Below, piece by piece: positions 31,644 through 55,526 of a DNA stretch of 64,000 nucleotides. Position 1 is the stretch's first letter. Every line of letters begins with the position of its first letter. Under the pieces are notes generated by a model. The model was not told where the DNA came from and searched no databases. It saw only the letters and a program-made list of their open reading frames with translations. This DNA is from Streptomyces roseirectus. Its GTDB lineage: Bacteria; Actinomycetota; Actinomycetes; Streptomycetales; Streptomycetaceae. The position numbers and the translations under genes are program-made. The stretch is from NCBI RefSeq assembly GCF_014489635.1, contig NZ_CP060828.1, forward strand, positions 9,288,001-9,352,000. Direction: 5' to 3'.

Positions 31644-31686
31644 GTCAAGTCTTTCTGTGGGGGATCGATGGATGGGCGGGCGTGGG

Positions 31687-34301: not shown

Positions 34302-36842
34302 TCACCCTTGCCCCGCCCGCCGCGCCTCCGCCCGCTGAGCCCGCCGGGACGTCCGCCCCGCCGCAGACGACGACGGCGCCGCCGCCTGCGTCAGCCCCAT
34401 CTGCTCGGCCAGGTTGTCGACGAAGGACCGGATCGTCGGGAACTCCACGAACGCCGTAGCCGGCACCTCGAAGTCCAGTTCCTCGCCGAGCTTCGCCACG
34501 ACCTCGATCAGGACCAGCGAGTCCAGGCCCAGGTCGAAGAGGTTGGTGTCGGGTGCGGCCAGGTGACGTCCGCCGAGGACCTTCCCGACCTCGTCCGTGA
34601 CGAAGTCGGTGACGAGGCCGACGTTGTGGGCGGGGTCGTCCGCCTCGAAGCGGGCCAGCAGCCGGTCACGGGCGGGCGCGTCGGGCCGGCCGGTGCGAGC
34701 GGCGCCGGGTTCCACCCAGTGCCGGCGCCGCTCGAACCGGTGTGTGGGCAACGGCACTCGGCGGACGTCCCGCCCGGAATGCAGGGCGGCGAAGTCGAGT
34801 TGGGCACCGCGCACCCACAACTCCCCGGCGAGGGAGAGGAGATCGGTGAGCCCGGTGACGTCGACGCGCACCCAGTCGGGCTGGACACCGTCCGGTGAAC
34901 CGCCCGTCCAGTCCTGCGGCTCCTGTGTGAGCCGCGCCCCCGTCCCCGCCGCCAGCACCGGCGTGCTCGGCACCCCGACCCGCGCCGGCACGCTCCCCGC
35001 CGCCAGCGCCAGCGCGTCCGGCAGAGTCAGCGCCCCGGTCACGGCGGCGGCCACCGCGAGCCCGGCCCCCGCACCCGCGAACGCGCCCGGGGCGACCCCC
35101 CAGGACAGCAACGCCCGCACGACCCCGTAGGTGTGACAGAACCCGGCGTGCGGCCCGGTCCCGCCGACGGCCTCGGCGCACGCGTCCACGGCCTCCCGGT
35201 AGGCGGGCACCGCCGCGTACAGCGCACCCGCGTCGGCGGACGCCGAACCGTCAAGGACCAGCACCGGCGCGACGTCCCCGGCGACACCCCGCAGGATCCC
35301 GTCGCCGTCCCCCAGCGCGAGCGCCATCGCCGCGCCCCGCGTCCGGTCGGCGACCAGCGCGAGACGGTGCCCGTGCGCCCGCCGCCCGAGCCCCAGCGTC
35401 TGCGCGACGGCCGACAGGTCGAGGTCGCGGCGCGCCCGCAGATGCCGGGCGAGCGCGGCCGCCGCCTGCTTCAGGGCCTGATCGGACCGCGCCGACAGCA
35501 CCAGCAGTTCGGGCCGCTCCCCGGGCACAGGCGAGGGCCGCGCCGGACCCTCCTGGAGGATCACGTGCGCGTTCGTCCCGCCGATCCCGAACGAACTGAC
35601 GCCCGCCCGCAGCGGACCCCGCGCGGACGACCACTCGGTCGTCGCCGTGTTGACGAAGAACGGGCTCGACGCGAAGTCGATCTCCGGGTTCGGCGCGGTG
35701 AAGTGCAGGCTCGGCACCAGCGTCCGGTGCTCCAGCATCAGCGCCGTCTTGATCAGCCCCGCCATCCCGGCGGCCGTGTCCAGATGGCCCACGTTCGTCT
35801 TCACCGACCCCAGCGCGCAGTACCCGGAACGGTCCGTGCCGTGCCGGAACGCCTCCGTCAGCGCGGCCACCTCGATCGGATCACCCAACGGCGTCCCCGT
35901 GCCGTGCGCCTCGACATAGCCGATCGTGTCCGGATCGACGTCCGCGACCTCGTGCGCGTCCGCGATCACCGCCGCCTGACCCGGCACGCTCGGCGCGGTG
36001 TACCCCGTCTTCGCCGACCCGTCGTTGTTGATCGCCGACCCCTTGATCACCGCGTGGATCCAGTCCCCGTCGGCCAGCGCCTCCTTGAGCCGCTTCAGGA
36101 CGACGGCCCCGGCGCCGCTCCCGATGACCGTGCCCCGCGCCTCGGCGTCGAAGGCCCGGCAGTGCCCGTCGGGCGAGAAGATCATGCCCTCCTGGTACTG
36201 ATATCCCTCACCCGGCGGATTCAGGTGCACCGCGCCCACCAGCGCCATGTCGCACTCCCCGCCCAGCAGCGCCAGACACGCCGTGTGCACCGCCACCAGC
36301 GACGTCGAGCACGCCGTCGAGAGGGTGACGCTCGGCCCGGTCAGCCCGAGCTTGTACGACACCCGCGTCGACAGGAAGTCCTTGTCGTTGGCGAGCATCA
36401 GCCGGTACCGGTCCACCGACGACGCGCCCCGGTAGCGCTCGCCCAGGTTGTGCAGCAGATACGTGTTCATACCGGCGCCCGCGTACACCCCGATCTGCGC
36501 GTCGGTGCGCTCGGGGTCGTACCCGGAGCTCTCCAGCGCCTCCAGCGCACACTCCAGGAACACCCGGTGCTGCGGGTCCAGGATCTCCGCCTCGTCGTGC
36601 GTGAACCGGAACAGCTCCGAGTCGAACAGATCCGTGCCCGCGATCGTCTGCGCGGCCTTCACATAGCGCGGGTCGGCCAGCCGCTCGGCGGGCACCCCGG
36701 CGGCGGTCAGCTCGTCGTCCGTGTAGCGGGTCAGGGTCTCTTGGCCCTCGCTCAGGACCTCCCAGAACCGGTCGACGGAGTCGGCCCCCGGGAAACGGCA
36801 CGACATCCCGATGATGGCGACGTCGGAGTCGGAAACGGTCAT
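34302..36842 (-). CDS. PKS module KS-(AT remnant)-ACP, no reduction domains
   Basis: An 846-residue polyketide synthase subunit. KS is residues about 5-430, with active Cys178 (STACSTS), 'EAHGTGTPLGDP' and a 'KTNVGHLD' lysine. Residues about 440-690 are AT-like but inactive: the GHSxG motif is replaced by 'GAGAGLAV', while the post-AT 'LPTHRFERRRHWVEP' linker is kept. ACP lies at about 730-815 with phosphopantetheine Ser775 (LGLDSLVL). With no KR or DH it would add one malonyl unit and leave the ketone, as needed before oxazole closure. Malonyl must come from a trans-acting AT, none of which is in the window. The gene is last in the assembly-line operon. Confidence 0.9.
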   Translation of the reverse strand: MTVSDSDVAIIGMSCRFPGADSVDRFWEVLSEGQETLTRYTDDELTAAGVPAERLADPRYVKAAQTIAGTDLFDSELFRFTHDEAEILDPQHRVFLECALEALESSGYDPERTDAQIGVYAGAGMNTYLLHNLGERYRGASSVDRYRLMLANDKDFLSTRVSYKLGLTGPSVTLSTACSTSLVAVHTACLALLGGECDMALVGAVHLNPPGEGYQYQEGMIFSPDGHCRAFDAEARGTVIGSGAGAVVLKRLKEALADGDWIHAVIKGSAINNDGSAKTGYTAPSVPGQAAVIADAHEVADVDPDTIGYVEAHGTGTPLGDPIEVAALTEAFRHGTDRSGYCALGSVKTNVGHLDTAAGMAGLIKTALMLEHRTLVPSLHFTAPNPEIDFASSPFFVNTATTEWSSARGPLRAGVSSFGIGGTNAHVILQEGPARPSPVPGERPELLVLSARSDQALKQAAAALARHLRARRDLDLSAVAQTLGLGRRAHGHRLALVADRTRGAAMALALGDGDGILRGVAGDVAPVLVLDGSASADAGALYAAVPAYREAVDACAEAVGGTGPHAGFCHTYGVVRALLSWGVAPGAFAGAGAGLAVAAAVTGALTLPDALALAAGSVPARVGVPSTPVLAAGTGARLTQEPQDWTGGSPDGVQPDWVRVDVTGLTDLLSLAGELWVRGAQLDFAALHSGRDVRRVPLPTHRFERRRHWVEPGAARTGRPDAPARDRLLARFEADDPAHNVGLVTDFVTDEVGKVLGGRHLAAPDTNLFDLGLDSLVLIEVVAKLGEELDFEVPATAFVEFPTIRSFVDNLAEQMGLTQAAAPSSSAAGRTSRRAQRAEARRAGQG

Positions 36843-36865
36843 GGTGATGCACTCCTGCGGGTCGG

Positions 36866-37999
36866 TCAGCTCAGACGGATGCCGAGGTCGGCGGCGACGG
36901 AACGCATGTCGAGGAAACCGCGCGCGACGAACCGGGCGGCGTCCTCGCCCGCGTCCATCCGCCGGAACAGGTCGATCAGGGTCCGCTCGTGCTCGGCGGA
37001 GTCCCCCTCACCGGCCGCGATCGCCTTCACCACCGAGCCGAGGCGCGCCTCCACATCGGCCAGGTCCAGCGAGCGCGGGAACTTGATGCTGAACGTGTTG
37101 CGGTCGTAGGACGCGTTCCGCTTCACCGACCGGACGTGACTCGCCGCGTTCAGCTTGTAGAACATGCAGTCGAAATTGCTGTACGAGTAGTAGTTCAGCA
37201 GCGGGAACAGCGTGCAGTGCGTCTCCATCGGCGACGACGCGTACAGCCCCTTCGCCCGCAGCTCCGCCACGATCCGGTCCGGGTCGTACTCGTGGCGCAT
37301 CGCGATGAACGGGAACACGATCTTCGGCAGGTTCTCGTCGTCGTCGAACAGCAGCTCTTCGAGACGGCCCGCGAACAGCGTGTCCGTCAGCCGCTCCCCG
37401 AACGTCTTGTAGAAGCCGCGCACCACCTCACGGACGTTCGACTCCATCGTCAGGATCTGCTGCGGGTCCGCGCACAGCGCGATGTACGGGATCTTCCGCT
37501 CGTACGCCATCAGGATCGCCCGCAGCACGAAGAACGTCCGGCACGAGACGCACGGCAGTTTCTCGTCCAGGTACTTGCCCGGCGTCTTGGGCACCGGCCG
37601 GTTGAACACCTCGCGCATCATCAGCTTGATGTTGTCGTCGTCCGCGTCCAGCACGAACGTCGCCGGGATCCTCTCCCGCGCCAGCGCGATGTTCTGCGCC
37701 GCGTGCACGCTCTCGAACGGCACGTCGAAGGTGAACGCCAGCACCCGCTTGCCGTAGTCGTTGACGAACTTGTCCAGCATGTAGGTGCTGTCCTTGCCGC
37801 CGCTGTACATGAACAGGCAGTCGAACTCGCCGCGCGCGGCGGGCGCCCGCTGGAACTCGGCGAACACCTCACTGGTGTACCGGTAGTTGACGAGCAGGTC
37901 CCCGGCGAAATCCAGGTTGCACAGATTGCACACCCCCTGGTCGTCGACGGTGATCCCCGGGTGGTCGGCCTTCAGCGAACAGACCTGGCAACTGGACAC
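36866..37999 (-). CDS. N-type PP-loop ATPase, candidate oxazole-forming cyclodehydratase
   Basis: A 377-residue protein from a GTG at 37999 with a GGGAG site; longer frames overlap the NRPS gene. The PP-loop SGGKDS lies at residues 66-71 and marks an enzyme that adenylates a carbonyl oxygen. Cys pairs C4/C7 and C24/C27, and a further CxxC near residue 155, suggest a zinc site. As I recall, related PP-loop proteins in the oxazolomycin and conglobatin clusters are proposed to close the oxazole from an N-formylglycyl ketide. Its place between the formylglycine NRPS and the KS-ACP subunit supports that role. Relatives also amidate sugars, so the assignment is inferred from context. Confidence 0.8.
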   Translation of the reverse strand: MSSCQVCSLKADHPGITVDDQGVCNLCNLDFAGDLLVNYRYTSEVFAEFQRAPAARGEFDCLFMYSGGKDSTYMLDKFVNDYGKRVLAFTFDVPFESVHAAQNIALARERIPATFVLDADDDNIKLMMREVFNRPVPKTPGKYLDEKLPCVSCRTFFVLRAILMAYERKIPYIALCADPQQILTMESNVREVVRGFYKTFGERLTDTLFAGRLEELLFDDDENLPKIVFPFIAMRHEYDPDRIVAELRAKGLYASSPMETHCTLFPLLNYYSYSNFDCMFYKLNAASHVRSVKRNASYDRNTFSIKFPRSLDLADVEARLGSVVKAIAAGEGDSAEHERTLIDLFRRMDAGEDAARFVARGFLDMRSVAADLGIRLS

Positions 38000-38046
38000 G
38001 TAACTCCCTGTGGAACCAATGGACGTGAACGATCGGACGGAGCAGG

Positions 38047-41000
38047 TCACGGCCGGCGCCGCTTGCGGTCCCGGCGCCCGGCCAGCGCCGACACGTCCCG
38101 CGGACGCCGGGGCCGCACCGCATCGGACGCCTCCCCGGCGACGTGCGCGGCCATCGCCCGGACCGTCGGACGGCCGAACATGTCGAGCCGGGTCACCGCC
38201 AGCCCCAGCCGCTCCCGCAGCGCCGCCACCACGGACGTCAGCCGCAGCGAGTCCCCGCCCGCGTCGAAGAAGTTGTCCTCGGCCCCGACCCGCTCCAGCC
38301 CCAGCACCTCGCACCAGATCCCGGCGATCCGCCGCTCGAGATCCGTGCGGACGGCGGCTGTCGGGCCCTTCGCGGTGTCGGGGCGCGGCAGCGCACCCCG
38401 GTCGACCTTGCCGTTCGGCGTGAGCGGCAGCCCCGGCAGCGCGACGACGGCCGACGGCACCATGTACGCGGGCAGCCGCTCGGCGAGCGCGCCCCGCAGC
38501 ACACCCCCGTCGGGCACGCCGGTCACATACCCGATGAGCCTGCGCTCACCGGGCCGGTCCTCGCGCACGACCGCCACCGCACCCCGCACGCCCGGGAGTC
38601 GACGCAGCGCCGACTCGACCTCGCCCAGCTCGATCCGGAACCCGTTCAGCTTCACCAGACCGTCGATCCGCTCCAGGTACACGAGCCGCCCGTCGGGCAG
38701 GTGCCGCACCAGGTCGCCGGTGCGGTACGCGCGCCCCCTGCCGCCTTCAGGGGCCGGGACGAAACGCTCGGTGGTCAGCTCCGGGCGGTGGAGGTAGCCG
38801 TCCGCCACCCCGTCGCCGGAGAGCAGGAGTTCACCGGGGACACCGGGCGGGACGGGGGTGCCGCGCTCGTCCAGGACGTGGGCGCGGGTGTTGCCGACCG
38901 GACGGCCGACGGTGACCTCGGCGCCGGGCTCGACGCGCTCCACGGTCGACCAGATCGTGGTCTCCGTGGGGCCGTACATGTTGAACAGGGCGCCCACCGA
39001 CGGGGCGAGCCGGGCGGCGAGTTCGGCGGGGAGGGGTTCGCCGCCGCACAGGGCCTTCAGCGCCGGGTCACCCCGCCAGCCCGCCGCGAGCAGCATCTGC
39101 CAGGTGGTGGGGGTGGCCTGGAGGACGGTCGGGGCCGCGCGCTCGACGCGCTCACGCAGGGCCACCCCGTCGGCGGCCACCACAGCGGGCAGGATCTCCA
39201 CGGTGCCGCCCCGCACCAGGGGGAGGTACAGCTCAAGGCCGGCGATGTCGAAGCAGACGGTGGTGAGGGCCAGCAGCGAGTCGGCGGCGGTGAAACCGGG
39301 CCTGCGGGCCATCGTCCACAGGAAGTTGACCAGGGCGCGGTGGCCGACCTGGACGCCCTTGGGGAGGCCGGTCGAGCCGGAGGTGTAGATGACGTAGGCG
39401 GGGGCGTCCGGGGAGGAAAGATCGACGGGAGGCGCCTCGGACCGGACGGGCGCCTCGCCGACCAGGACCGGGGTCACCGGGAACTCTGCGAGCGCGCCGC
39501 CCAACGCCGCGTCCGTCAGCACCAGTTCGGCCCCGGAGTCCTTCAGCATGTGACCGATACGGGCCGGCGGGTAGATCGGGTCGATCGGGACGTACGCGGC
39601 CCCCGACCGCAGCACCGCGAGCAGACTGATCAGCAGCTCCGGCGAACGCTCCAGGAAGACGCCCACCAACCGGCCCGGTCCGGCGCCGAGTTCGCACAGG
39701 TGCTGCGCCAACCTGCTGGTCGCGTCGTCGAGTTCGCCGTACGTCACCTCACGGCCCTCGAAACGGACGGCGACGGCGTCCGGGGAGGCGTCCGCGACGT
39801 TGCCGATGAGCGAGGTCACGGTGGCGCGGCGCGGATACTCCTCGTCGGTGTCGTTCCACTTGCCGTGCACCAGACGGCGTTCCTCGTCGTCCAGCAACGA
39901 GACGGTGGCCAGGGGGCGTTGGGGCTCGTCGGCGATCCCGTCGAGGAACAGGGCGTACCGCTCGGCGAGCCACGCGGCGTGGGCGCGGGTCACGAAGCGG
40001 ACGGTGCCGGTGGCGTCGATACGGACGGTCAGCGGGCGGTCGGCGTCGGTGTCGTCGTCGAGGGCGATCGCGACGGGCAGCGTCGTCGCGGCGAGCCCCG
40101 GATGGCGCAGGGGGAGGTCTCTGCGGTGCGGGGTCGTCGAGTGGAGGCGGTCCAGTTCGGCGCCGACGCGCGCGGTGAGGTCGGAGAGGGTCCCGGAAAG
40201 GGGGTTCTCCGGGATGTTCAGGGGGAGTTCGGGGGCCAGGACGAGTGCCGCCGCCGGGTTCGGGGCGGGTGGGGCCGAGACCGCCACGGTGTGTTCGCCG
40301 CCCCGGGTGAGGCGGGTGAGGAACGCCAGGACGGCGGCGACGGCGGTCCGCCGGGGGTCGCCGGTGAGGCTCGCGGGCAGCGGGACCGGGCCCGCCGGAC
40401 GGTTCGCCGGGCGCAACTCGCCCAGCCTGGGCGGGAGTACGGGCTGCCGCGACTCCCACGCCCGCAGCCAGCGCGCCTCACGCCGGTGCGCGGCCCGCGA
40501 CGCCCGCACCAGGTCGGCCACCGCGTCCTCGGACAGGTGCGGGAAACGGCCGTCCAACGCGCTGGCCAGGACGGGGAGTTCGAGGGGTTCGCCGGTCAGG
40601 GCGGCCAGGCCGGTGAGGCGGACGTCGCGGTCGCCGGCCGCGACCGTGAGGGCGTCCGGGGTGACGTCGACGATCGTGCCGGGGGACGCCGTCGACTCCT
40701 GATCGGTGACCTCGACCGCCCGGACGGCCACCAGGCCCTCGCCGGTCGCCAGCAGGGCCGTGCCGAAGTCGTTGCGGCGCCTGCCGAACGCGGTCGCGCG
40801 GACCAACGCGTCGATTCGTGCGGCAGGTTGGCGCCAGTCGAGGACGCCGCCGCGCGGCGGGCCGTCGTAGCGGCCGTGGTAGGTGCGCAGGCTCATGTCC
40901 TGCGGGGTGCGGACGGCCGTGCCCGCCGCCAGCTCGTCGACCAGCTCGGCGAAGGACTCGACGCCGGCGTCGAAGCAGGCGACGTCCAGATCGTGGACGG

Positions 41001-41439
41001 TGGCCGCCGGGGGCACCGGGACGGGGCGCTGCTTGAGCAGGTCGCCCGTGTCGGCCTCGCGGTTCATCACGTGCCAGGTGACGCCGTGTTCCCGCGCCCC
41101 CTCCAGGACGGCCCAGCTCGTCGCGTAGAGACCGGCGTGCCTCGGGAGCGGGCCGTCGTGGAAGTTGACGGGGAGCCTGCCCGGCAGCGCCAGGATCTCC
41201 TCGGGGAGCATGCGGAGGTTGGCGATGCTGAACAGGTAGTCGAAGGTGAGGGGCCGGAGTCGGTCCGCGAGATCCCGGCCGAACTCCACAGCGGGCAGGC
41301 CCTCGTTCTCCGCCCACGCCAGCAGGTCGGGCGTGGGGGAGACGACGGCGGCGACAGTGTGGCCCCGGGCCAGCAGGACGCGCGTGCACTCGACGAGAAG
41401 GGCTTCCTCGCCGACGACCACACAGGTGAACGGCTTCAT
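38047..41439 (-). CDS. NRPS loading module: formyltransferase-A(Gly)-PCP
   Basis: A 1,130-residue protein. Residues 1 to about 300 are a formyltransferase with the N92/H94 (VNFHDGPLP) and D130 catalytic positions, expected to use formyl-tetrahydrofolate. Residues about 340-500 resemble the end of a condensation domain without its HHxxxDG motif. The adenylation domain (about 515-1010) has 'YTSGSTGLPKG' and a specificity code I read as D-I-L-Q-C-G-M-I-W-K, close to the glycine code DILQLGLIWK. The PCP (about 1025-1095) has 'DNFFDAGGDSL'. It should load N-formylglycine. Its ATG overlaps the stop of the giant PKS gene (ATGA). Confidence 0.92.
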   Translation of the reverse strand: MKPFTCVVVGEEALLVECTRVLLARGHTVAAVVSPTPDLLAWAENEGLPAVEFGRDLADRLRPLTFDYLFSIANLRMLPEEILALPGRLPVNFHDGPLPRHAGLYATSWAVLEGAREHGVTWHVMNREADTGDLLKQRPVPVPPAATVHDLDVACFDAGVESFAELVDELAAGTAVRTPQDMSLRTYHGRYDGPPRGGVLDWRQPAARIDALVRATAFGRRRNDFGTALLATGEGLVAVRAVEVTDQESTASPGTIVDVTPDALTVAAGDRDVRLTGLAALTGEPLELPVLASALDGRFPHLSEDAVADLVRASRAAHRREARWLRAWESRQPVLPPRLGELRPANRPAGPVPLPASLTGDPRRTAVAAVLAFLTRLTRGGEHTVAVSAPPAPNPAAALVLAPELPLNIPENPLSGTLSDLTARVGAELDRLHSTTPHRRDLPLRHPGLAATTLPVAIALDDDTDADRPLTVRIDATGTVRFVTRAHAAWLAERYALFLDGIADEPQRPLATVSLLDDEERRLVHGKWNDTDEEYPRRATVTSLIGNVADASPDAVAVRFEGREVTYGELDDATSRLAQHLCELGAGPGRLVGVFLERSPELLISLLAVLRSGAAYVPIDPIYPPARIGHMLKDSGAELVLTDAALGGALAEFPVTPVLVGEAPVRSEAPPVDLSSPDAPAYVIYTSGSTGLPKGVQVGHRALVNFLWTMARRPGFTAADSLLALTTVCFDIAGLELYLPLVRGGTVEILPAVVAADGVALRERVERAAPTVLQATPTTWQMLLAAGWRGDPALKALCGGEPLPAELAARLAPSVGALFNMYGPTETTIWSTVERVEPGAEVTVGRPVGNTRAHVLDERGTPVPPGVPGELLLSGDGVADGYLHRPELTTERFVPAPEGGRGRAYRTGDLVRHLPDGRLVYLERIDGLVKLNGFRIELGEVESALRRLPGVRGAVAVVREDRPGERRLIGYVTGVPDGGVLRGALAERLPAYMVPSAVVALPGLPLTPNGKVDRGALPRPDTAKGPTAAVRTDLERRIAGIWCEVLGLERVGAEDNFFDAGGDSLRLTSVVAALRERLGLAVTRLDMFGRPTVRAMAAHVAGEASDAVRPRRPRDVSALAGRRDRKRRRP

Positions 41440-44400
41440 CGCGCGCCCCCTTCGGACTCGCCCTGCTGGGCGAGGAGTTCGGCCAGCAGTTCGTCAACGG
41501 CTTCGTCGGAGAGGCCCGCGACGAGGCGTTCGGCGTCGTCCAGGGGCGGTGCCTCGGGCCGGAAGTGGTCGGCGAGTTGGCGGATGGTGATGCGCTCGAA
41601 CAGCAGCGTCGCCGGCTGGGGGCCGTACACCGCTTCCAGGGCGCGGGTGAGTTCCAGGACGACCAGGGAGTCCACGCCGTAGTGCTCGAAGGTGAGGTCG
41701 GGGTCGAGGTGTTCCGGCGCCATCTCCAGGACGGCGGCGAACACGGCGGTGACCTGGGGGAGTTGGTCGGTGGCGGTGGTCTCGGTGGTGGCGGTGGCGG
41801 TCTCGGGCGTGACGGCTGCTGCGGTGACGTCCTGCGCGGCGGGTGCCTTGTTCGCGGGCACCCCGCGCTCCACCACCCCGTCGCTCACCGCCGCGATGAC
41901 GCTCTGGAACGCCGGCCCCGCCTCACTCACCGGCGCCCCCACGCTGATCCCCGTGAACCCGCACGCGGCGAGCACGTCCCGCCACTGCCGCTCGCTCGCC
42001 AGCGGCGAGCCCGGCATCCGCTGCTCGGCGTCCGAGAACAGCCACCACCCCGACGTCAGCCCGAAGATCAGCGCGAGCTGGCTGCGGGGCCGTGTCCCCT
42101 CGACCGCGAGCAGCGCCCCGCCCCGCCGCAGCAGCCCCTTGGCCCGCGTCAGCGTGTCGGACAGGCGCCGGGTCGCGTGGAGCACGTTGGTGCCGAGGAC
42201 GACGTCGTACGCGCCGGACGGCTCCCCGGCCTCGATGTCCAGCACCTCGAACCGGACGAACGGATACCGCTCCCCGAACCGGCCGGCGGCCTTGCGGACG
42301 AACGCCGGGGACACGTCGGTGAACATGTACTCGACCGCGTCCCCGTACGGCGCGAGCGCGGCGAGCACGGCGGCCGTCGTCCCGCCCGTCCCCGCACCCA
42401 CCTCCAGGACACGCACCGTGCCGTCACCCCGGCGGGCCTGCACCTGCTCCACGACGAGCCGGGCCACCTCGGCGTTGCACCGGTCGGTGACCGGGTCACC
42501 CCGGTAGACGGCGGCCACCCGCTCGGTCGAACCGTCGGGGAACAGGACCTCCATGGCCGACCGGCGCCCGGTGAGGATGTCCGGCAGCGCGGCGAGACAG
42601 TCGGCCAGCAGCGTCACGACCGGCCCGAGAGCCGGGTGACGGTCCGTCAAACGGGCCATCGCCGCGAGGAGTTCCACCTCCGACTCGACCGCACGGCCAT
42701 CAAGCCCCGCCGCCTCGACGATCCCGAGCTGCACCGCGAACAACTCCCGGTGCTCCGCCACCACGTGGCCCGCGTCGGTCAGCCCCGCGCGCCGCAGCAC
42801 CACCGCTAGCAGCCGCTCCGCCAGCGCCTCGGCCTCGGCCACCGCCCGCTGGTGCGCGGCGAGTTCGGGATCCGACCCGGCCGGGAACCGCACCTCGGGC
42901 AGCGCGCCCGCCCCCTCGCCGGGCAGTAGCCGCAGCGTACGGCCGGCGTCGATCCCGAGGTGGTCCAGGATCGCCCGGTCCGCGTCCAGCGCGAACACCT
43001 GCGCGAGCCCGGCCCCGAGCGTCCGTTCCACCACCGTCATGCCCCGCTCGGCGCTCAACGGCCGGATCCCGGCGGCCTCGAACCGGCGCAGGACCCGCTC
43101 CCGCCCGGCGTCCCCGCCCGCGTGCCAGTACCCGAGGTTGAGCACCCGCACCGGGAACGGCAGCTCCCGGCCCGCGTGCCGGACGTACGCGTCGGCGAAC
43201 GCGCAGCCCGCCGCGTACCCCGCCTGCCCGTGATTGCCCTCGAAGGTCACGCCGGAGGAGAAGAACAGGGCGAAGTCCAGCGGCAGTTCACGCACCGCGC
43301 GCAGCAACGCCCAGGCCGTACCGGTCTTCACCTCCAGCGCGGCCCGCAACTCGCCCTCCGACAGCTCCCGCAGCACCCGTTCGACGAGGACCATCGCCGC
43401 GTTGAACACCCCGTGCAGCGCGCCGAACTCCCGCACGGCGAGATCGACGGCGCCCCCGAGCGCGACCGGATCGGTGGCGTCCACCGCGAGGTAGCGCACC
43501 TCGCCGCCCGCCTTCTCCCACTCCGCGACCGCCTGCCGCCGGGCCTCGTCGAGCGGGGAACGCCCGACGACGACCAGCTTCGCCCCGTACGACCGGGCCA
43601 GGTGCAGGCACAGGTCCCGGCCGACCGTGCCGAACCCGCCGACGACCAGATAGACACCGCCCTGCCTCAACACCGGCCCCGTCACGGGCAGTTCGACCCG
43701 CTCCAGAGTCCGCACCCGGCGCACCCCGCCCCGCAGGGACACCGGCACCGGCTTCGCCGGGAACGGCTCGGCGACGATCGCGTCCGCGACCTGCCCCGCC
43801 TCCCCGGCCCGCACGTCGACCAGCGCGACGCCGAGCCCCGGGAACTCCTTCGCCGCGACGGCCGCGATCCCGGCCAGCCCCGCGCCCCACGGCGACGACG
43901 CGTCGCCGTCCTCCAGCGGATACGTGTCGGTGGTGACGACCTTCAGGCGCACACCCCGCTCCAGCGCCCCCGACCGGTCGAGCGCCCGCACGAGCCGGTA
44001 CAGGGCGACGGGCCCCTGGTCCGCCAACTCCCGCAGCCGCGCCCGGTCCTGGGGCTCGGTCGCCGGCGCCGCCCCGAAGAAGTACACGAGGTCGGGGGTG
44101 CCGATCTCGGCGTCCGCGAAGTCGACCGGGACACGGCGGACGTCCGCGCCGGGATGCAACTCGGCGACGGGGTCACCGACATACAGCACACTGCGCGGCG
44201 CCCGCGCGCGGCCCTCGGCGGGCCGGGGCGTCCACACCGGCCGGTGCACGATCACGCCGGACGGCTTCGCCTCCCGGTACGACAGGCCCGCGAAACGCAC
44301 GCGCACCGCGCCCGAGTCGTCGCACAGCAGCACCTCGCAGCGGTCGGGACCGGTCTCCCGGACGTACGACCAGCCGCTGTCGGGCACCGGCCCGAACACG

Positions 44401-47400: not shown

Positions 47401-50400
47401 TCGTCCACGCCGCCGACCGACCACAGGGGCCAGGCCAGCGAGATCCCGCCCCGGCGGGCGGTGTAGGCGTCCGCGAACCGGTTGGCGGTCGCGTAGCTCG
47501 CCGCGCCGAAGTCGCCGACCAGGGAGGAGACGGAGGAGAACACGACGAACAGTTCGAGGCCGTCCCCGCGTGTCAGCCGGTCGAGATGCACCAGCCCGTG
47601 CGTCTTGGCCGCCAGCACCCGCGCGAACCGCCCCCGGTCCCCGTCGGCCCGCCCGTCGTCGGCGACCCCGGCGAGATGGAACACCCCGTGCAGCACACCG
47701 AACCGCTCCCGCGCGGCCCCCAACGCGGCGTCCAGCGAGGCCGGTTCGGTCACGTCCGCCCGCAGCGCCAGCACCTCGGTGCCGAGCGCCCGATGCCAGG
47801 CCCGGGTCTCCTCGTCCGGCTCCGAACGGCCGACCAGCACCAGCCGGGCCCCATGCGCACACGCCAACTCCTCGACGAGCACCCGCCCGACGGCCCCGGC
47901 GCCACCCGTGACGACGTACACGCCCCCGTCCCGCACGGAAACCCCGGCGCCGCCCTCCCCGGCGAAAGCGCGCAGAGCCCGAACCTCCCGGCCCCCGGCG
48001 GCAGTTCGGCGCACATCGAGCCCGGCGGCCCGAGGCGCACCCCGCAGCTCCACCACCACGGCCCGCGCGACCTCGCCCGCCGACGCGCCCTCCGGCACCT
48101 CCAGCGTCAGCAGCTCCAGCCGGGGCGCGACCGGCGCCGTGGACCGCGCGAACCCCGCGAACGCCGCCCCCTCGGGACGCCCCTCCCGATACACGACCAC
48201 ACACCGAACCCGCCCCGACCGCACGCCGGTCCGCACGGCGTCCAGCACATCGAGGACCAACGCGCTCAGCCGGTCGAGGAGTTCGGCGGGGGAGAGGGCG
48301 TCGTCCGGCTCGCTCATGACGACGACGTCGAGCCCGTCACCGGAAGCGTCACCGAGCGCTTCGGCGCCGACGACGCTCGCCCACACGCCGGCGTCCGTCA
48401 ACTCGCCGCGCAGCGCCGGGCGTTCACCCAGCACCGCCAGCACAGGGGCGACCTCGCCGGGCTCGGGGTCGGAAGAGGGACGCCAGTACGGCTCGTAGAG
48501 CCGGGGCTCCTCCGAAGGAGACATCGACGCCGTCCGTCCCGCGAAGTCCCTGACAGTCAGCAGCACTTCGCCCCGCTCGCCGTACACCGTCACATCGAAC
48601 CGCCGCACTCCCGCCGACTCACCCACCAGCCGCGCATGAGCCGAACACCCTTCGGACAGTACGCCGAAGACGTCCAGGGACCCCATGCTGAACGGAACGG
48701 CCAACTCACCCGAGTCCGACGGCCAGGGCGCGGCCCAGTGGCACGCCCGCAACGCCCCGTCGAGCAACGCCCACGGCTGCCCCGCCCCCAACCGCACCAA
48801 CGCCTCCCCGGCACCGGCCCGGATCTCCTCGACGACCTGGAACGACGGCCCATAGCCGAACCCGGCCTCGGCATAGTCACGGTAGGCGGCGCCCCGGTCC
48901 CGTACCACGGCCAACCGGTCGCGCACGGAGGCGAGTTCGTGGGCGGCGTCCGGCGACCCGGCACCCGCGACCGCGATCCCCCGCGCGTGCGTCCCGCCCT
49001 CGCTGTGCACCTCGAACGCGAGATGACCGCCCTCCGGCCGGAACGACACGAACAACTCGAGGGAACCCTCGGCGAGTTCGACGGCCCGCCCCCACACCAC
49101 GTCCCGCAACGCGTGCCGCACACCCGGCTCGGCCAGCCCGGCGGCGGCCCGCACGAACTCCAGCGTCGCCGCCCCGGCGAACAGCGGCCGCCCCGCGATG
49201 ACATGGTCGAGCAGCAGCGCGTCGGACGCCCGCAGCGTCTTGCGGAACCGCACCCCGGTGACGGTCGACTCGTTCGCGTCGACCAGCGGATGCGGCGCGG
49301 GCGAGCCGAACTCGGCGTCGAGCGGGATCCAGTACGTCTCGTCGGCGAACGGATACAGCGGCGCCCGCGTCCTCCGGAGCCGGCCGGAGTGCAGGGCCGC
49401 CCAGTCGACGTCCTCACCGGCCAGCCAGCGGCGGACCGAGTCGTCGACGGCGTCGGGAGCGGCCCCGCCGTCCGCGAACCTCCGTAGCGCGGCGACGAGT
49501 TCGGCGCCGTCGGTCACCGTCACCGCGAATCGCGCGTCGAACGCCTCACGGCCGACCTGGGTCGTGAAGCACAGGTCGGCGAGGGGGACCCGCTCGGTCG
49601 CGACGAAGTCGGCGGCCCGGTCGGCGTACACGCGCAGCCGCTCCTCGTCCCGCGCCGACAGCAGGAACGACACCGGCTCACCGACACGCTGTTCACCCGC
49701 CGGCAGCTCCGTCACCGCGTCGGGGCGCGGCGACTCCTCCAGCACCAGGTGCGCGTTCGCGCCGCCCGCCCCGAAGGAGCTGAGCCCCGCCCGGCGCGGC
49801 CCCTCGCCCCCGGGCCAGGCGGACAGTTCGCGCTGGACCCGGAACGGCGAGCGCCCGAAGTCGATGTTGGGGTTCAACTCCCCGGCGTGCAGGGACGGGA
49901 CGAGCGTCCGGTGCCGGAACTGGAGCAGCACCTTTGTCAGCCCGGCGACCCCGGCCGCCGACTCCAGGTGCCCGATGTTCGACTTCGCCGACCCGATCGG
50001 CCAGGTACCGGGCGCCGCGCCGGCCGACGCGTACGCGTTCGTCAGCCCCGTCAGCTCGATCGGGTCGCCGAGACTCGTCCCGGTGCCGTGCGCCTCGACG
50101 TAGCCGATCTCCCGGGGCGTGACCCCGGCCGCGCGCAGCGCCGTCGAGACGACCCGCTGCTGGGCGCGCGGGTTCGGGACGCTGTAACCGTTCGTGCGGG
50201 CACCGTGGTTGATCGCGCTGCCCAGGATCACCCCGTGGATCCGGTCACCGTCCGCCAGCGCCCGGCGGTACGGCTTGAGCAGCACCGCGCCGACGCCCTC
50301 GCCGGGCACGTACCCGGTGCCGCCCGCGCCGAAGGCCCGGCAGCGGCCGTCGTCCGACAGGAAACGGCCCTGACTGAGGAACGCGAACTTGTACGGGTGC

Positions 50401-53400
50401 ACCGACACGTTGACGCCCCCGGCGATCGCCAGCTCGCTCTCGCCCTTGCGCAGGCTCTCGCACGCCAGGTGGATCGCGGTCAGCGACGACGAGCACATCG
50501 TGTCCAAAGCCATGCTCGGGCCCGACAGGTCCAGGGCGTGGCTCACCCGGTTGGCGATCGTCGCGAACGACGAACCCGTGAGCGGACGTCCGCCGCGCAG
50601 CGCGTCCAGCGCGCCGTGGAACTGGTACTCGCCGTACATCACCCCGACGTACACACCCACCGGACGCCCGGCCAGCTCCGCCCGCCGGTAGCCCGCGTCC
50701 TCCAGCAGATGCCAGGCGTTCTGGAGGAACAGCCGCTCCTGAGGGTCCATCAACTCCGCCTGGCGGGGCGAGATCCCGAAGAACAGCGGGTCGAACCGGT
50801 CGACATCCCGCAGGAATCCGCCCCACCTGGTGTGCGCGAGGCCGGGGGCCGACGGGTCGGGGTCGTACCAACGGGCGCTGTCCCAGCGGTCCTTGGGGAT
50901 CTCGGTGATGCTGTCGCGGCCCTCGGAGAGGTTCGCCCAGAACTCGTCGAGGTCGTCGGCGCCGGGGTAGCGGCCGGCGAGACCGACGACGGCGATGGCG
51001 TCGTCGGAGTCGGCCGGATCGGTGGTTTCAGCGGGGGTGGTCGGCCTGGTGCGGCGAACTATGCGTGTCGCAGCGGCAGGTGGGGGCTCAGGGGTGCTCT
51101 CCTCGCTCAGCTCGCCCGCATGCCGCTCGGCGAAGTAGTCCGCCAGCTCCCCGAGGTTCGTGTACTCGAAGAACAGCGTCTTCGACAGGTTCGCGAAGTG
51201 CCGCTCCAGCTCCCGGTTCAGCTTCGTGATCATCAGCGAGTCGATGCCGTACCGCTCGAACGGCGCGTCCTCGTCCAGCTCCGCCGCGTCCAACCCGGTC
51301 TCGGCGGCGATGAGTTCACGCAGCAGCTCGACGGCACGGCCCCTGGACGTGTCCCCCGAGACGGCCGGCCGGCGTTCAAGCGAAGGCGCGGGCTCGACGA
51401 GCGCGGCCGTGATCCGCCGCACGTCACCGTGCGCGGCGACCACAGCACCCCACACCCCCAACGCCCGCTCGAACAAGGCGAGTCCAGCCTCTGTCGCCAG
51501 CACCCCGAACCCGGTGCGCGCGGCGACGTCCGCCGTGTCCTCGGCGCTCTGCCGCATCCCGCCGTCGGCCCACAGCGGCCAGGCGATCGCGGTGATCCGG
51601 CCGTGACGCTCGGCGTACGCCTCCAAGGCGGCGTTGGCGTACGCGTAGTCGCTCTGGCCGGGGTTGCCGATGTGCGCGGCGATCGACGAGAAGGCGACGA
51701 AGAAGTCGAGCCCGTCGTCGGCGGTCACGGCGTCGAGGGCTTCGAGCCCGCCGAGCTTCGGCGTCACGACGGCCGCGAAGTCCTCGTCCGACTTGGTCAG
51801 CGCGAACCCGTCCCGCAGCACACCGGCCGCGTGGACGACACCGCTGAACGGCCCGAACTCGCTGTGCACGGCGATGAGTTGATCCAGGTCGGCGACGTCC
51901 GCGCTCCGGTACACCACCCGCTCGTCCAGCCCGGCGGGCCGCTCCCCGCGCCCGACCGCCACGACCCGGACGTCCGCCGCCCGGTCGAGCAGCCACGCGC
52001 CGACGATCCGCCCGAGCCCGCCCGCACCGCCCGTCACCAGATACGTGCCACCGTCGCGCACGGCGACCGGCTCCCCCTCGGACGCGGCCTCGACCACCGG
52101 CACCCGACGGGTTCCGGTGCGGTAGGAGACCTCCACGTCCCGCCCGTGCCCGGCGAGTTCGCCCGCGAGATCGGCGTCCTCGCCCAGCTCGATCGCCTGG
52201 ACCTCCAGCAGCGGGTTCTCCGCGCGCACGGTCCGCGCGAACGCGCCGAGCGCGGGATCGTCCCGGTGCGCCAGCAGCACGCGGACGGGGCGAGCCGGCC
52301 GATCACTGAGGAGGTCCCGGACGACGCGCAGGGCCTGCTCGGGGCCGGAGCCGTCGGTCAAGTCGACGAGGACGACGTCCGGCACCGATCCGGGCGCGGC
52401 CGTCTCGAACCCGAGGCCGGTCAGGAGCGCGCTCAACTCCTCGGCACGTTCGACGGGGGCGACGACCCGTGCGGTGCCGCCGATCTCAACTCCCTTAGCG
52501 GGCAAGGGCGTCTCGGCCCACCGCCGCGCCAGCAACGCGGACTCCCGAGCCCCGCCCGGCACCGGTGCGAGGGCATCGCCCCGCCCCAGCACCCGCACCG
52601 CGAGATCGTCGAGCCGGGCCAGCACCCGCCCGTGCCCGTCCACCAACGTCACCCGCACCCGCGCGGCCCGCTCGCCCAACTCCCCGGCCACCACGTGAAC
52701 CCGGCACCCCTCGGTGACCGGCGCGTGCACGACGAGCCCGTCCAGCGCCAACGGCAAGAACCCCGCCGCCGACTCCCCGTAGGCCCGCGCCAGCAGCACG
52801 ACCACCGCGTGCAACGCCCCGTCCAGCAACGCCGGATTGAGCACCACCCCCTCCAGCGCGGCCCCCTCGTGCAGCTCCAGAACGCCCAGCGCCTCCCCGT
52901 CCCCGACCCGCACCTCAGCCAACGCCCGCATCCGGGCCCCGTATTCGAGACCGAGCCCGCGCAGCACGTCGTAGCACTCGGCGTGCCCGACCACGTCCGC
53001 GCACCGGTCCGCGACCGGCGTCAGATCGACCGGCGCGCCCGCGTCGACGGGCCCCGCGAGAACCTGACCAGACGTCACCACCGTGTCCCCGTCGGCGAGT
53101 TCGAAGCCGACAGCGTTGTTCTCGTCCCACATCCGCACGATCGCCGTCCGTGCCCCCTCCGCGTACGACAGCAGCCGCTCGAAGGAGACCCCGCGCAGCC
53201 GCACGGGCCCACCGAGCGCGAGCTGCCCCGCCGCCCGCACCAGCTCGACCTGCCCGGCGGCCGGCATGACCGGCTCCCCGCCCACCAGGTGATCGGCGAG
53301 ATAGAACTCGGCACCGGTACGGGAGCTGCGGTAGGCGAGGGTGTCGAGCGTCGACACGTTCTCGTCGAGCATCGGATGCGGCCCGGCAGGAACGGCAGCC

Positions 53401-55526
53401 GAACCGGCGCCAGCCGAACCAGCCGCAGAAGACCCGGAGTTGACAGACCCCGCACCCTCGCCCCCCGGCGCCTCCAGCCAGCAGCGTCGCCCCTCGAACG
53501 GATACGTCGGCAGCGGAACCCGCCCGCGCTCCTCCCCCTCGAACCAGGCCGCCCAGTCGACTCCCGCGCCCGCCTGCCAGGCCCGCGCCACCCCCTCCCA
53601 CGGCCCGTCGCCCACCCCGAGCGCGACCCCGCGCACCTCGTCGAGCGCACCCCGCACCGGAATCCGCGCACGCCGCGCCTCACCCGTCCCGCTCACCGCG
53701 TCCTCGAGGGACAGCGCGCCCGTGACACAGGCGGCCAGCCGCGCCGCGCCCCCGTCGCCGTGCACCGCGACCGGCGTGACACCCCAGTCCAGCCACAGCT
53801 TGCCCAGCGCGTACTGCACGGCGAACGCCTCGCCCGCCCCCGCATCGCGCGCGGCCTCGTGGTACCCGGTGAACGCGGGCTCCACGGCACCCCACTTCCG
53901 CGCCAGCTCCGCCGCGCCGGGCACCTCCTCGGCGAACACGAACGACACCTCACCGCCGCCGGGCCGCTCCGGAGCGGGCGCTGTCCGCAGCGCCTCGGCG
54001 AGCGCGGCCCGGTCGGAGCCGGTGACCGCGAGCCGGTACTCGTGCGCGCGCCGGCCCACCGCCAGCGTGTACGCGACGTCGGCGAGCGGGGCACCGTCGT
54101 CGCCGTCGAGATGGCCGGCGAGGTTCGCGGCGGCCGTGGCCAGCGCGGTCGGCGTCCGCGCCGACACCACGAGGACCTGCGACGGCCGTGAGGCGCCCGT
54201 CGCCGGGAGCGGCGGGGCCTCCTCCACAACGGCGTGCGCGTTGGTGCCGCCGATGCCGAACGAGCTGACGCCCGCGCGCAGCGGCCCGTCACCCGTCCAC
54301 GGGACGGTGTCCGAGCTCACCTTGAACGGGCCCGCCGCGAAGTCGATCGCCGGGTTCGCGGACGTGTGGTGGAGCGTCGGCACCAGCGTGCGGTGCCTCA
54401 GCATCAGCGCCGTCTTGATCAGCCCCGCGACCCCGGCCGCCGCGTCCAGGTGACCGACGTTCGACTTCACCGAACCGATCGCGCAGAACCCGGTGTCGGC
54501 GGTCGTGTCCCTGAACGCCCTCGTCAGCGCCGACACTTCGACGGGGTCGCCGAGCCGGGTCGCGGTGCCGTGCGCCTCGACGTACCCGATCGTGCGCGGG
54601 TCGACGCCGGACACGGTGTGCGCCTCGCGGATCACCGCCGCCTGACCGGCCGCGCCGGGAGCCGCGAAACTCACCTTGCCCGAGCCGTCGTTGTTCGTCG
54701 CCGTGCCCTTGATGACCGCGTACACCGTGTCCCGGTCGGCGAGCGCGTCCCGCAGCGGCTTGAGGACGACGACTCCGACGCCGTTGCCGAGAACGGTGCC
54801 GCTCGCGTCCGCGTCGAACGTCCGCACGTGCCCGTCCCGGGAGAGGATCGCCCCCTCCTCGTACAAGTACCCCTTCTCCTGGGGCACTTTGACGGTGACG
54901 CCGCCCGCGAGCGCGATGTCGCACTCCCCGTTCACCAGTCCCTGGCAGGCCAGGTGGACGGCTACCAGCGACGTCGAACAGGCCGTCTGCACGGCGTAGC
55001 TGGGGCCCTTGAGGTCGAGCTTGTACGACAGCCGCGTCGCCAGGTAGTCCTTGTCGTTGCCGACCATGACCGCGAAGTGGTTCGACGTCGTCGTCTGGTC
55101 GACGTTGGGCAGCACGTGCCGCTGGAGGTAGGTGTTGACGGCCGCGCCCACGTACACGCTGATCAGGCCGTCGTAGCGGGCCGGGTCGTAGCCGGCGTGC
55201 TCCAGCGCGGCGTGGCCCGCCGTCAGCAGGACGCGGTGCTGCGGGTCGGTGATCGCCGCCTCGGCCGGGGTGAACTCGAAGTAGCCCGTGTCGAAGAGGT
55301 CGACGTCCGGGATGATCCCGTGGGCCGGGACGTAGGCGGGGTCGTCCAGCAGACGCGCCGGGACGCCGGCCGCCGCCAGTTCGTCGCGGCCGAAGCGGGT
55401 GATGCCCTCGCGACCCTCCTTCAGCAGACGCCAGAAGGAGTCGAGGTCGTCGGCGCCGGGGAACCGCCCGGCCATCCCGATGATCGCGACATCCGTCTCG
55501 GCCGCCTGGACCTCGTGGCTGCTCAC
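41436..55526 (-). CDS. Three-module AT-less type I polyketide synthase
   Basis: 4,696 residues from a GTG at 55526 with a GGGGAG site. Module 1: KS (Cys183), AT remnant ('VHGDGGAA' instead of GHSxG), DH (His746, DxxxH kept), KR (about 1160-1375), ACP (Ser1430). Module 2: KS (Cys1678), DH (His2108, but Pro of HxxxGxxxxP is Ala and DxxxQ/H is DGALR), KR (about 2535-2740), ACP (Ser2826). Module 3: KS (Cys3076), canonical DH (His3535), KR (about 3960-4170), C-methyltransferase ('VLEVGAGTGGT' near 4374), ACP (Ser4620). No AT and no thioesterase are present. The C-terminus ends in a short helical docking-like segment. Each module should give an alkene, the last alpha-methylated. Start of the assembly-line operon. 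Confidence 0.93.
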   Translation of the reverse strand: MSSHEVQAAETDVAIIGMAGRFPGADDLDSFWRLLKEGREGITRFGRDELAAAGVPARLLDDPAYVPAHGIIPDVDLFDTGYFEFTPAEAAITDPQHRVLLTAGHAALEHAGYDPARYDGLISVYVGAAVNTYLQRHVLPNVDQTTTSNHFAVMVGNDKDYLATRLSYKLDLKGPSYAVQTACSTSLVAVHLACQGLVNGECDIALAGGVTVKVPQEKGYLYEEGAILSRDGHVRTFDADASGTVLGNGVGVVVLKPLRDALADRDTVYAVIKGTATNNDGSGKVSFAAPGAAGQAAVIREAHTVSGVDPRTIGYVEAHGTATRLGDPVEVSALTRAFRDTTADTGFCAIGSVKSNVGHLDAAAGVAGLIKTALMLRHRTLVPTLHHTSANPAIDFAAGPFKVSSDTVPWTGDGPLRAGVSSFGIGGTNAHAVVEEAPPLPATGASRPSQVLVVSARTPTALATAAANLAGHLDGDDGAPLADVAYTLAVGRRAHEYRLAVTGSDRAALAEALRTAPAPERPGGGEVSFVFAEEVPGAAELARKWGAVEPAFTGYHEAARDAGAGEAFAVQYALGKLWLDWGVTPVAVHGDGGAARLAACVTGALSLEDAVSGTGEARRARIPVRGALDEVRGVALGVGDGPWEGVARAWQAGAGVDWAAWFEGEERGRVPLPTYPFEGRRCWLEAPGGEGAGSVNSGSSAAGSAGAGSAAVPAGPHPMLDENVSTLDTLAYRSSRTGAEFYLADHLVGGEPVMPAAGQVELVRAAGQLALGGPVRLRGVSFERLLSYAEGARTAIVRMWDENNAVGFELADGDTVVTSGQVLAGPVDAGAPVDLTPVADRCADVVGHAECYDVLRGLGLEYGARMRALAEVRVGDGEALGVLELHEGAALEGVVLNPALLDGALHAVVVLLARAYGESAAGFLPLALDGLVVHAPVTEGCRVHVVAGELGERAARVRVTLVDGHGRVLARLDDLAVRVLGRGDALAPVPGGARESALLARRWAETPLPAKGVEIGGTARVVAPVERAEELSALLTGLGFETAAPGSVPDVVLVDLTDGSGPEQALRVVRDLLSDRPARPVRVLLAHRDDPALGAFARTVRAENPLLEVQAIELGEDADLAGELAGHGRDVEVSYRTGTRRVPVVEAASEGEPVAVRDGGTYLVTGGAGGLGRIVGAWLLDRAADVRVVAVGRGERPAGLDERVVYRSADVADLDQLIAVHSEFGPFSGVVHAAGVLRDGFALTKSDEDFAAVVTPKLGGLEALDAVTADDGLDFFVAFSSIAAHIGNPGQSDYAYANAALEAYAERHGRITAIAWPLWADGGMRQSAEDTADVAARTGFGVLATEAGLALFERALGVWGAVVAAHGDVRRITAALVEPAPSLERRPAVSGDTSRGRAVELLRELIAAETGLDAAELDEDAPFERYGIDSLMITKLNRELERHFANLSKTLFFEYTNLGELADYFAERHAGELSEESTPEPPPAAATRIVRRTRPTTPAETTDPADSDDAIAVVGLAGRYPGADDLDEFWANLSEGRDSITEIPKDRWDSARWYDPDPSAPGLAHTRWGGFLRDVDRFDPLFFGISPRQAELMDPQERLFLQNAWHLLEDAGYRRAELAGRPVGVYVGVMYGEYQFHGALDALRGGRPLTGSSFATIANRVSHALDLSGPSMALDTMCSSSLTAIHLACESLRKGESELAIAGGVNVSVHPYKFAFLSQGRFLSDDGRCRAFGAGGTGYVPGEGVGAVLLKPYRRALADGDRIHGVILGSAINHGARTNGYSVPNPRAQQRVVSTALRAAGVTPREIGYVEAHGTGTSLGDPIELTGLTNAYASAGAAPGTWPIGSAKSNIGHLESAAGVAGLTKVLLQFRHRTLVPSLHAGELNPNIDFGRSPFRVQRELSAWPGGEGPRRAGLSSFGAGGANAHLVLEESPRPDAVTELPAGEQRVGEPVSFLLSARDEERLRVYADRAADFVATERVPLADLCFTTQVGREAFDARFAVTVTDGAELVAALRRFADGGAAPDAVDDSVRRWLAGEDVDWAALHSGRLRRTRAPLYPFADETYWIPLDAEFGSPAPHPLVDANESTVTGVRFRKTLRASDALLLDHVIAGRPLFAGAATLEFVRAAAGLAEPGVRHALRDVVWGRAVELAEGSLELFVSFRPEGGHLAFEVHSEGGTHARGIAVAGAGSPDAAHELASVRDRLAVVRDRGAAYRDYAEAGFGYGPSFQVVEEIRAGAGEALVRLGAGQPWALLDGALRACHWAAPWPSDSGELAVPFSMGSLDVFGVLSEGCSAHARLVGESAGVRRFDVTVYGERGEVLLTVRDFAGRTASMSPSEEPRLYEPYWRPSSDPEPGEVAPVLAVLGERPALRGELTDAGVWASVVGAEALGDASGDGLDVVVMSEPDDALSPAELLDRLSALVLDVLDAVRTGVRSGRVRCVVVYREGRPEGAAFAGFARSTAPVAPRLELLTLEVPEGASAGEVARAVVVELRGAPRAAGLDVRRTAAGGREVRALRAFAGEGGAGVSVRDGGVYVVTGGAGAVGRVLVEELACAHGARLVLVGRSEPDEETRAWHRALGTEVLALRADVTEPASLDAALGAARERFGVLHGVFHLAGVADDGRADGDRGRFARVLAAKTHGLVHLDRLTRGDGLELFVVFSSVSSLVGDFGAASYATANRFADAYTARRGGISLAWPLWSVGGVDEMVGAQELAAYTRRSGMRALDAAQGVELFRRALAAGAPWLVPAWGEPAVLDAALAGSAAPAPSPASAGAAPRSPARTTAPARRERLVEHLRGVLAGVLKLSTGRLDSRVPLDDYGLDSVLVMESNSLLGKDFPGLRGTVFFECRTVDELADHILTEHPDAVERLFPATVAEPATVEQPQPKPTTSPVPAPVHRPDDDPIAVIGISGRYPQADTLDQFWRNLAEGRDCVTEVPADRWDASALADSGLTNSRWGGFLSDVDCFDSLFFQISPKQARTMDPQERLFLQTAWAALENAGYPPSRIPAPRFGGQGHDVGVFVGVMWDDYAILGAAETARGNPQTVLANRSSIANQVSFFGDFRGPSVVVDTACSASLVAVHQACESIRRGECAYALAGGVNVAVHPDRYVHLAAKSMLSDDGRCRAFGAGGTGYVPGEGVGAVLLKRLSDAVRDGDTVHAVIRATGVNHGGRTSGYTVPNPQAQQALVEQVLASAGIDARTVGCVEAHGTGTALGDPVEHTALAQAFGRHTADTGFCALGSVKSNIGHLEGAAGIAGLTKAVLQLRHGTLLPSLHAEELNPVIDFASSPFRVQRELSAWHSGDGPRRAAVSSFGAGGTNAHVILEEYVAPEPAGAVDGRELIVLSARDEERLRVYAAELSRAVADAPRLADVAHTLRVGREPLAERLAFVAVDLADAAEKLAAAGRGEGGQWLHRGRVGQHPPLADLLTSGAGADAFLAAQIEAGADDLLGRMWVSGVTVDWDLLERLRPAARRRVPLPTYPFARVRHWLEVGTDTSTGTPGRLSVGTPHHSTPSAPWRHRLSPDAPVLRDHVVDGRPILPGVGHLNLVAEAVGDGGLTGRAFTDVRWVTPLTVTGPAENVTVAFDGARYDVLGADGTVRSTGRLTDAAERPAPLDTNALRTQLDVSADDFYGALARQGLPYGPFFRRVRQVWTGDSEVLGRIDAMDDTSTHALHPGVLDAALHTYAALLVRRERPMLPFAADRVDVFGPVPDSGWSYVRETGPDRCEVLLCDDSGAVRVRFAGLSYREAKPSGVIVHRPVWTPRPAEGRARAPRSVLYVGDPVAELHPGADVRRVPVDFADAEIGTPDLVYFFGAAPATEPQDRARLRELADQGPVALYRLVRALDRSGALERGVRLKVVTTDTYPLEDGDASSPWGAGLAGIAAVAAKEFPGLGVALVDVRAGEAGQVADAIVAEPFPAKPVPVSLRGGVRRVRTLERVELPVTGPVLRQGGVYLVVGGFGTVGRDLCLHLARSYGAKLVVVGRSPLDEARRQAVAEWEKAGGEVRYLAVDATDPVALGGAVDLAVREFGALHGVFNAAMVLVERVLRELSEGELRAALEVKTGTAWALLRAVRELPLDFALFFSSGVTFEGNHGQAGYAAGCAFADAYVRHAGRELPFPVRVLNLGYWHAGGDAGRERVLRRFEAAGIRPLSAERGMTVVERTLGAGLAQVFALDADRAILDHLGIDAGRTLRLLPGEGAGALPEVRFPAGSDPELAAHQRAVAEAEALAERLLAVVLRRAGLTDAGHVVAEHRELFAVQLGIVEAAGLDGRAVESEVELLAAMARLTDRHPALGPVVTLLADCLAALPDILTGRRSAMEVLFPDGSTERVAAVYRGDPVTDRCNAEVARLVVEQVQARRGDGTVRVLEVGAGTGGTTAAVLAALAPYGDAVEYMFTDVSPAFVRKAAGRFGERYPFVRFEVLDIEAGEPSGAYDVVLGTNVLHATRRLSDTLTRAKGLLRRGGALLAVEGTRPRSQLALIFGLTSGWWLFSDAEQRMPGSPLASERQWRDVLAACGFTGISVGAPVSEAGPAFQSVIAAVSDGVVERGVPANKAPAAQDVTAAAVTPETATATTETTATDQLPQVTAVFAAVLEMAPEHLDPDLTFEHYGVDSLVVLELTRALEAVYGPQPATLLFERITIRQLADHFRPEAPPLDDAERLVAGLSDEAVDELLAELLAQQGESEGGAR

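Follow-up and report, generated by a model that had tools for sequence, protein, structure and literature searches.

The closest described relatives of the assembly line considered here are those of phthoxazolin (ptx), oxazolomycin (ozm) and conglobatin. The ptx genes of S. avermitilis KA-320 form one 99.9-kb cluster that includes ptxG and ptxH, and their published description matches PtxC, D, E, F, B and A to OzmQ, P, O, N, H and M, respectively, holds the first AT domain (AT1) in both PtxA and OzmM to be inactive or dispensable, and has glycine supplying the amide after an unexplained cleavage (PMC5764310). Phthoxazolin A itself is reported there to inhibit cellulose biosynthesis and to be active against oomycetes (PMC5764310). 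The conglobatin line (CongA-E) likewise has an FT-A-PCP protein with a glycine code and a PP-loop protein with an SGGKDS motif, CongE, which is 80% identical to OzmP (PMC4504003). Catalysis by this PP-loop protein has the standing of a proposal in both accounts (PMC4504003, PMC5764310).

The window analysed here, a 64,000-nucleotide stretch on one arm of the Streptomyces roseirectus chromosome (C1), contains on its minus strand, consecutively, genes for PKS1, an FT-A-PCP protein, a PP-loop protein and a KS-ACP protein, whose types and module limits are as follows:

41436..55526, minus strand: PKS1 of the PtxF/OzmN type, 4696 aa, with three trans-AT KS-DH-KR-ACP modules (from Pfam, motifs and ends)
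51027..55526, minus strand: PKS1 module 1, KS-DH-KR-ACP (approximate boundary, placed between domains)
46857..51026, minus strand: PKS1 module 2, KS-DH-KR-ACP with variant DH motifs (approximate boundary)
41436..46856, minus strand: PKS1 module 3, KS-DH-KR-MT-ACP (approximate boundary)
42111..42407, minus strand: C-methyltransferase core of PKS1 module 3 (Pfam, residues 4374-4472)
38047..41439, minus strand: FT-A-PCP loading protein, PtxE/OzmO/CongA type, 1130 aa (Pfam and motif letters)
36866..38050, minus strand: PP-loop protein carrying SGGKDS, a proposed oxazole cyclodehydratase of the OzmP/PtxD/CongE type (from alignment; role from the literature)
34302..36842, minus strand: KS-ACP protein, PtxC/OzmQ type, 846 aa (Pfam and motifs)

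Pfam searches recovered three KS, three DH, three KR and three PP-binding domains in PKS1, with a methyltransferase confined to the last module near the C-terminus, which itself ends in a docking-like helix; formyltransferase, AMP-binding and PP-binding domains in the 1130-aa NRPS; and KS and PP-binding domains in the 846-aa protein. The PP-loop protein gave no Pfam match. Its reading frame is open within 36866-38314, and it probably starts at the GTG at 38050, overlapping the stop of the preceding gene. The active-site motifs are kept in all four KS domains of the window. Inspection of the A domain of the loading protein shows the stretches CFDIAGL, VLQATPT, LCGGE and NMYGPTETTIW, which we read as a putative glycine code. 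The second DH of PKS1 departs from the P and H/Q of the consensus motifs, reading HxxxGxxxxA and DGALR. The DGALR variant is common to all four relatives compared and the final A to three of them (the pattern missed the motif in the fourth); the consensus of the first motif is also given in the ptx description (PMC5764310). The third KR of PKS1 has Ser-Tyr-Cys, as reported for phthoxazolin KR4 (PMC5764310). The original prediction had read from this region three KR/DH modules with C-methylation only in the last, and kinship to the left half of inthomycin and oxazolomycin by way of an oxazolyl-triene-methyl intermediate; the Pfam matches and motifs bear out the former, and the domain content supports the latter.

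The same prediction had described the module for the hydroxy-dimethyl unit and the amide as absent from the window, and indeed no such module lies within it. Of the 87 KS matches in the genome four fall in the window, all within the PKS1 and KS-ACP genes, while none of the 56 AT matches does, and the window also contains no thioesterase. The cis-AT modules and dimerising thioesterase described for the conglobatin line (PMC4504003) have no counterpart here, the window PKS being without an AT. It had further been proposed that these genes form a minimal cluster making a shorter acid, and the lack of any additional module or thioesterase in the window would fit window genes that act alone and release a shorter oxazolyl-methyl-triene acid, free or conjugated, perhaps glucuronidated through the adjacent UDP-glucose dehydrogenase-type, glycosyltransferase and nucleotidyltransferase genes at 29420-33093. 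We regard this as barely plausible: the missing modules and AT are encoded in the same genome, where they were located by scans for trans-AT linkers and AT domains, and they adjoin the window genes in S. acidiscabies. Further, the sugar genes, which we do not count as tailoring genes, are matched in none of 47 related regions, as far as the fetched flanks extend, and lie past a breakpoint described below.

This second locus (C1:517388-541449) is on the left arm of the chromosome and consists of two genes:

C1:520879-541449: PKS2, PtxB/OzmH type, 6856 aa
overlapping the end of the PKS2 gene: discrete AT-AT-oxidoreductase, PtxA/OzmM type

PKS2 has the order KS-KR-MT-ACP, C-A-PCP, KS-DH-KR-ACP, KS-DH-ACP-KR-ACP, then a variant KS in which ETNAAGS replaces EAHGTGT, and a final KS with intact motifs and no following ACP; this two-KS ending is at C1:520879-522632. 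The first module lacks a DH and hence suits a CH(OH)-C(CH3)2 unit; its KR has Ala at the usual Asn position, by reading of the sequence. The A domain also appears to carry a glycine code. The tandem AT domains have the motifs GASLG (AT1) and GHSLG (AT2), and in the S. acidiscabies orthologue Pfam recognises both the AT and the oxidoreductase domain. With no ACP at the end of PKS2 and no thioesterase seen, release of the product has no explanation, a gap shared with ptx. The N-terminus of PKS2 has a helix-like stretch, MDHKRTALLRLLR, and the C-terminal stretch of the window PKS1 is LSDEAVDELLAELL; such docking-like ends are kept in the PKS1/PKS2 pair of all four relatives compared (S. acidiscabies G392, and G393, G396 and G067).

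In the trans-AT linker scan, strong groups were confined to 0.52, 4.28 and 9.33 Mb, with a single further site at 8.20 Mb. The trans-AT PKS at 4.28 Mb was set aside as the missing partner, as an adjoining asparagine-synthase-like gene, recognised by reading the protein starts, suggests a glutarimide type. The search elsewhere in the genome for KS-KR-MT modules, which had been suggested as a check, found one as the first module of PKS2, with docking-like ends; further PKS modules that dock to this subunit were what the original prediction had named as refuting it. The finding of fitting PKS modules, a glycine-type NRPS module and a trans-acting AT at C1:517388-541449 speaks against the shorter acid of a minimal cluster. 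The alternative offered alongside it, that genes elsewhere are used, fits best, and the same genes adjoin those of the window in S. acidiscabies.

Taken by published description and not by alignment, the two loci together comprise the same set as ptx up to module 6: FT-A-PCP, the PP-loop protein, KS-ACP, three triene modules, the KR-MT module and the glycine NRPS module, as well as a discrete AT-AT-oxidoreductase, a KS without the HGTGT histidine and the lack of a thioesterase (PMC5764310). In terms of what marks a phthoxazolin/inthomycin-type line, the genome has FT-A-PCP with a putative glycine code, the SGGKDS PP-loop protein, and KS-ACP with three KS-DH-KR-ACP modules of which the last has the C-MT; outside the window follow a KS-KR-MT-ACP module without DH, a glycine NRPS module and the tandem AT with oxidoreductase. 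A departure is that the genes are not in a single cluster, which is unnecessary for the chemistry. Whereas ptx is one cluster with ptxG and ptxH, this strain has two loci, and its PKS2 of 6856 aa ends in a KS, as against 5939 aa in ptx (PMC5764310). By the published correspondence with the ptx genes, counterparts of OzmN, O, P, Q, H and M of Streptomyces albus JA3453 are likewise present. The ozm cluster is larger, with further PKS/NRPS genes that in the ozm-like relative G396 follow PKS2; none were seen beside PKS2 here, and no ptxG/ptxH- or ozmJ/ozmL-type subunits were seen in the stretches fetched near either half. The best PDB matches of single domains were 4wky for the first PKS1 KS, 4oqj for KS-ACP and 4ope for one PKS2 KS, all of which we take to be oxazolomycin ketosynthases.

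S. acidiscabies NRRL B-16521 (G392 C2:4395414-4440823) has the same six pathway genes, and the proteins compared are 78-86% identical (PKS2 79%, KS-ACP 86%, the PP-loop reading frame 86%, FT-A-PCP 82% and PKS1 78-80%). There, PKS2 and AT-AT converge on KS-ACP, PP-loop, FT-A-PCP and PKS1 across a gap of about 90 bp, whereas in this strain the two operons lie on opposite chromosome arms, 8.80 Mb apart. An isolate from potato whose ANI to S. acidiscabies is 93.35% is also reported to have an oxazolomycin-like cluster by antiSMASH (PMC6256455). The homology to the contiguous cluster, which is taken as the ancestral state, ends in the window at the following point:

34295..34302: breakpoint, end of S. 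acidiscabies cluster homology, at window 34300 (9,322,300); the partner end is C1:517387

It ends one base past the AT-AT stop codon at one locus and two bases past the KS-ACP stop codon at the other. With both breakpoints just outside stop codons, no reading frame was cut.

On the PKS2 side, the stretches compared at 517-601 kb and 706-746 kb follow S. acidiscabies C2 with falling coordinates, while the PKS1 side tracks C2 with rising coordinates up to 9,375 kb. Beyond the PKS2 breakpoint, 505-513 kb of this strain matches S. acidiscabies C1:5390-5398 kb, and S. acidiscabies C1:5304-5310 kb matches this strain at 9214-9221 kb. Two blocks contiguous in S. acidiscabies are hence divided between the arms, which indicates a near-whole-chromosome inversion or an arm exchange. 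A single clean inversion is supported only in part, being contradicted by three of the four matching blocks near 9.21 Mb, which are reversed relative to expectation, and by a displaced fatty-acid desaturase block: window 23921-27117, beside the breakpoint, corresponds to S. acidiscabies C2:4196779-4200000, and judged from gene order in that species its place would be near 739 kb, on the opposite arm. At window 33298-33969, at a distance of 330 bp from the breakpoint, lies a 672-bp TetR-type gene stretch with a 97% inverted copy at C1:9478916-9479587, 158 kb away, which adjoins a gene that by reading resembles an IS701-type transposase. The rearrangement may have involved mobile DNA.

The copied stretch so close to the window breakpoint would also fit a misassembly, in which case the living strain has the whole cluster and makes an inthomycin-type amide as usual; so would the failure to find the junction in any of the 296 relatives searched, and the genome's status as a single contig, here examined as assembled sequence. 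Yet no long repeat shared by the two junctions was found, several kb of DNA past both of them have no match to the acidiscabies cluster, and the second acidiscabies block is divided likewise. An artefact therefore seems to us to have only a slight chance of being the explanation. S. niveiscabiei was of no use as a further test of the split, its contigs ending too early (in L024, one base beyond KS-ACP).

Several genes in the remainder of the window were treated as neighbours. The stretch 57089-64000 contains genes for an MPAB-type oxygenase with EF hands, a cis-prenyltransferase, a DUF402 protein and Fe-ADH, PGK-like and semialdehyde-dehydrogenase-like proteins, and perhaps represents another pathway; several of the genes at 57-63 kb also adjoin PKS1 in S. 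acidiscabies, yet occur in none of the 47 related regions, whose flanks are mostly at most 10 kb. Window 1-20000, for which S. acidiscabies gave no more than 11 DNA matches, all weak, is probably a strain-specific island.

The PP-loop protein search yielded 44 named loci, and matches in 20 of 392 genomes of the genus (12 strong, including the strain's own, and eight weak). Identity is at least 80% in 19 of the 44 loci; 18 of these have DNA beyond KS-ACP, and a PtxB-like match is found there in every one, exceeding 1,300 aa in 14 (shorter matches are those of L026, L033 and L034). In L025, from S. acidiscabies, AT-AT and PKS2 are present beyond KS-ACP at 82-86%. Among the other 25 loci a PtxB-like match was found in four and none in 21, three of them with less than 2.4 kb of flank; these 21 are no evidence of absence, because in L060/G396 the PtxB-like gene sits on the other side of PKS1. 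Judged by these loci, S. niveiscabiei and S. acidiscabies are near relatives of the strain. Relatives of the PP-loop, FT-A-PCP and KS-ACP proteins also occur outside the actinomycetes in L040 (Enhygromyxa salina) and L062 (a Telmatospirillum MAG), in both with a PtxB-like match after KS-ACP.

A pathway that stopped working once split, its halves being relics not yet decayed that yield nothing or mere traces, would be in keeping with the position of conserved regulator-like genes (named by reading), which remain with PKS2 and are now distant from PKS1, and with a PKS2 that ends without an ACP, though the variant-KS/KS ending is the same in S. acidiscabies (the G393 gene is longer, with a different end). 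We consider such loss of function unlikely. All reading frames are intact and the KS motifs are kept save in the one variant KS, which is common to S. acidiscabies; both promoter sides face away from the breakpoints; and the dN/dS of both halves against S. acidiscabies (0.20-0.28 for PKS1, FT-A-PCP, KS-ACP, PKS2 and AT-AT, with the PP-loop gene excluded) resembles that of five flanking genes (0.07-0.29). These ratios carry no signal of decay, but they cannot isolate the time since the split and are not decisive proof of function after it.

The proposed pathway is as follows. FT-A-PCP would load formyl-glycine, KS-ACP would extend it by the first malonyl unit, either ahead of oxazole formation or in the course of it, and the PP-loop enzyme would cyclise the intermediate to a 5-substituted oxazole. 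The three KS-DH-KR-ACP modules of PKS1 would then build the triene, with the C-methyl introduced in the last, and the chain would pass by docking to the PtxB/OzmH-type PKS2 encoded 8.80 Mb away. There, KS-KR-MT-ACP would add CH(OH)-C(CH3)2-CO and C-A-PCP a glycine, giving an amide after cleavage or allowing further extension, while the PtxA/OzmM-type AT encoded beside PKS2 would supply the malonyl units. The near-whole-chromosome inversion would have cut the short gap between the convergent operons, so that promoter side and reading frames stayed intact in each.

Judging from the predicted proteins and their arrangement, we put at roughly 0.7 the probability that the two operons together make up a trans-AT hybrid NRPS-PKS line which is complete, belongs to the phthoxazolin/oxazolomycin kind and was split by an inversion. 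That this remains one working line, divided across the arms of the linear chromosome after an inversion between its operons and still making an inthomycin-type amide, we hold to be somewhat better than an even chance; we infer for this the expression of both operons, docking between the loci, the product structure and the mechanism of inversion. Most likely, the halves would cooperate to give an inthomycin/phthoxazolin-type amide or a longer relative, and a free shorter acid is unlikely as the product.

The chemistry is known, and what is unusual is that a single assembly line is shared out over two arms; in the literature searched, which lacked most subscription journals, no paper was recognised as describing a comparable split cluster. 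The case is also a warning that a reading of a single locus can give the wrong product, as happened in the original prediction. For the question of why biosynthetic genes remain in clusters, this strain and S. acidiscabies provide a natural experiment: if the divided line still makes an inthomycin-type amide, the physical clustering of a PKS pathway would be dispensable once each operon is whole.
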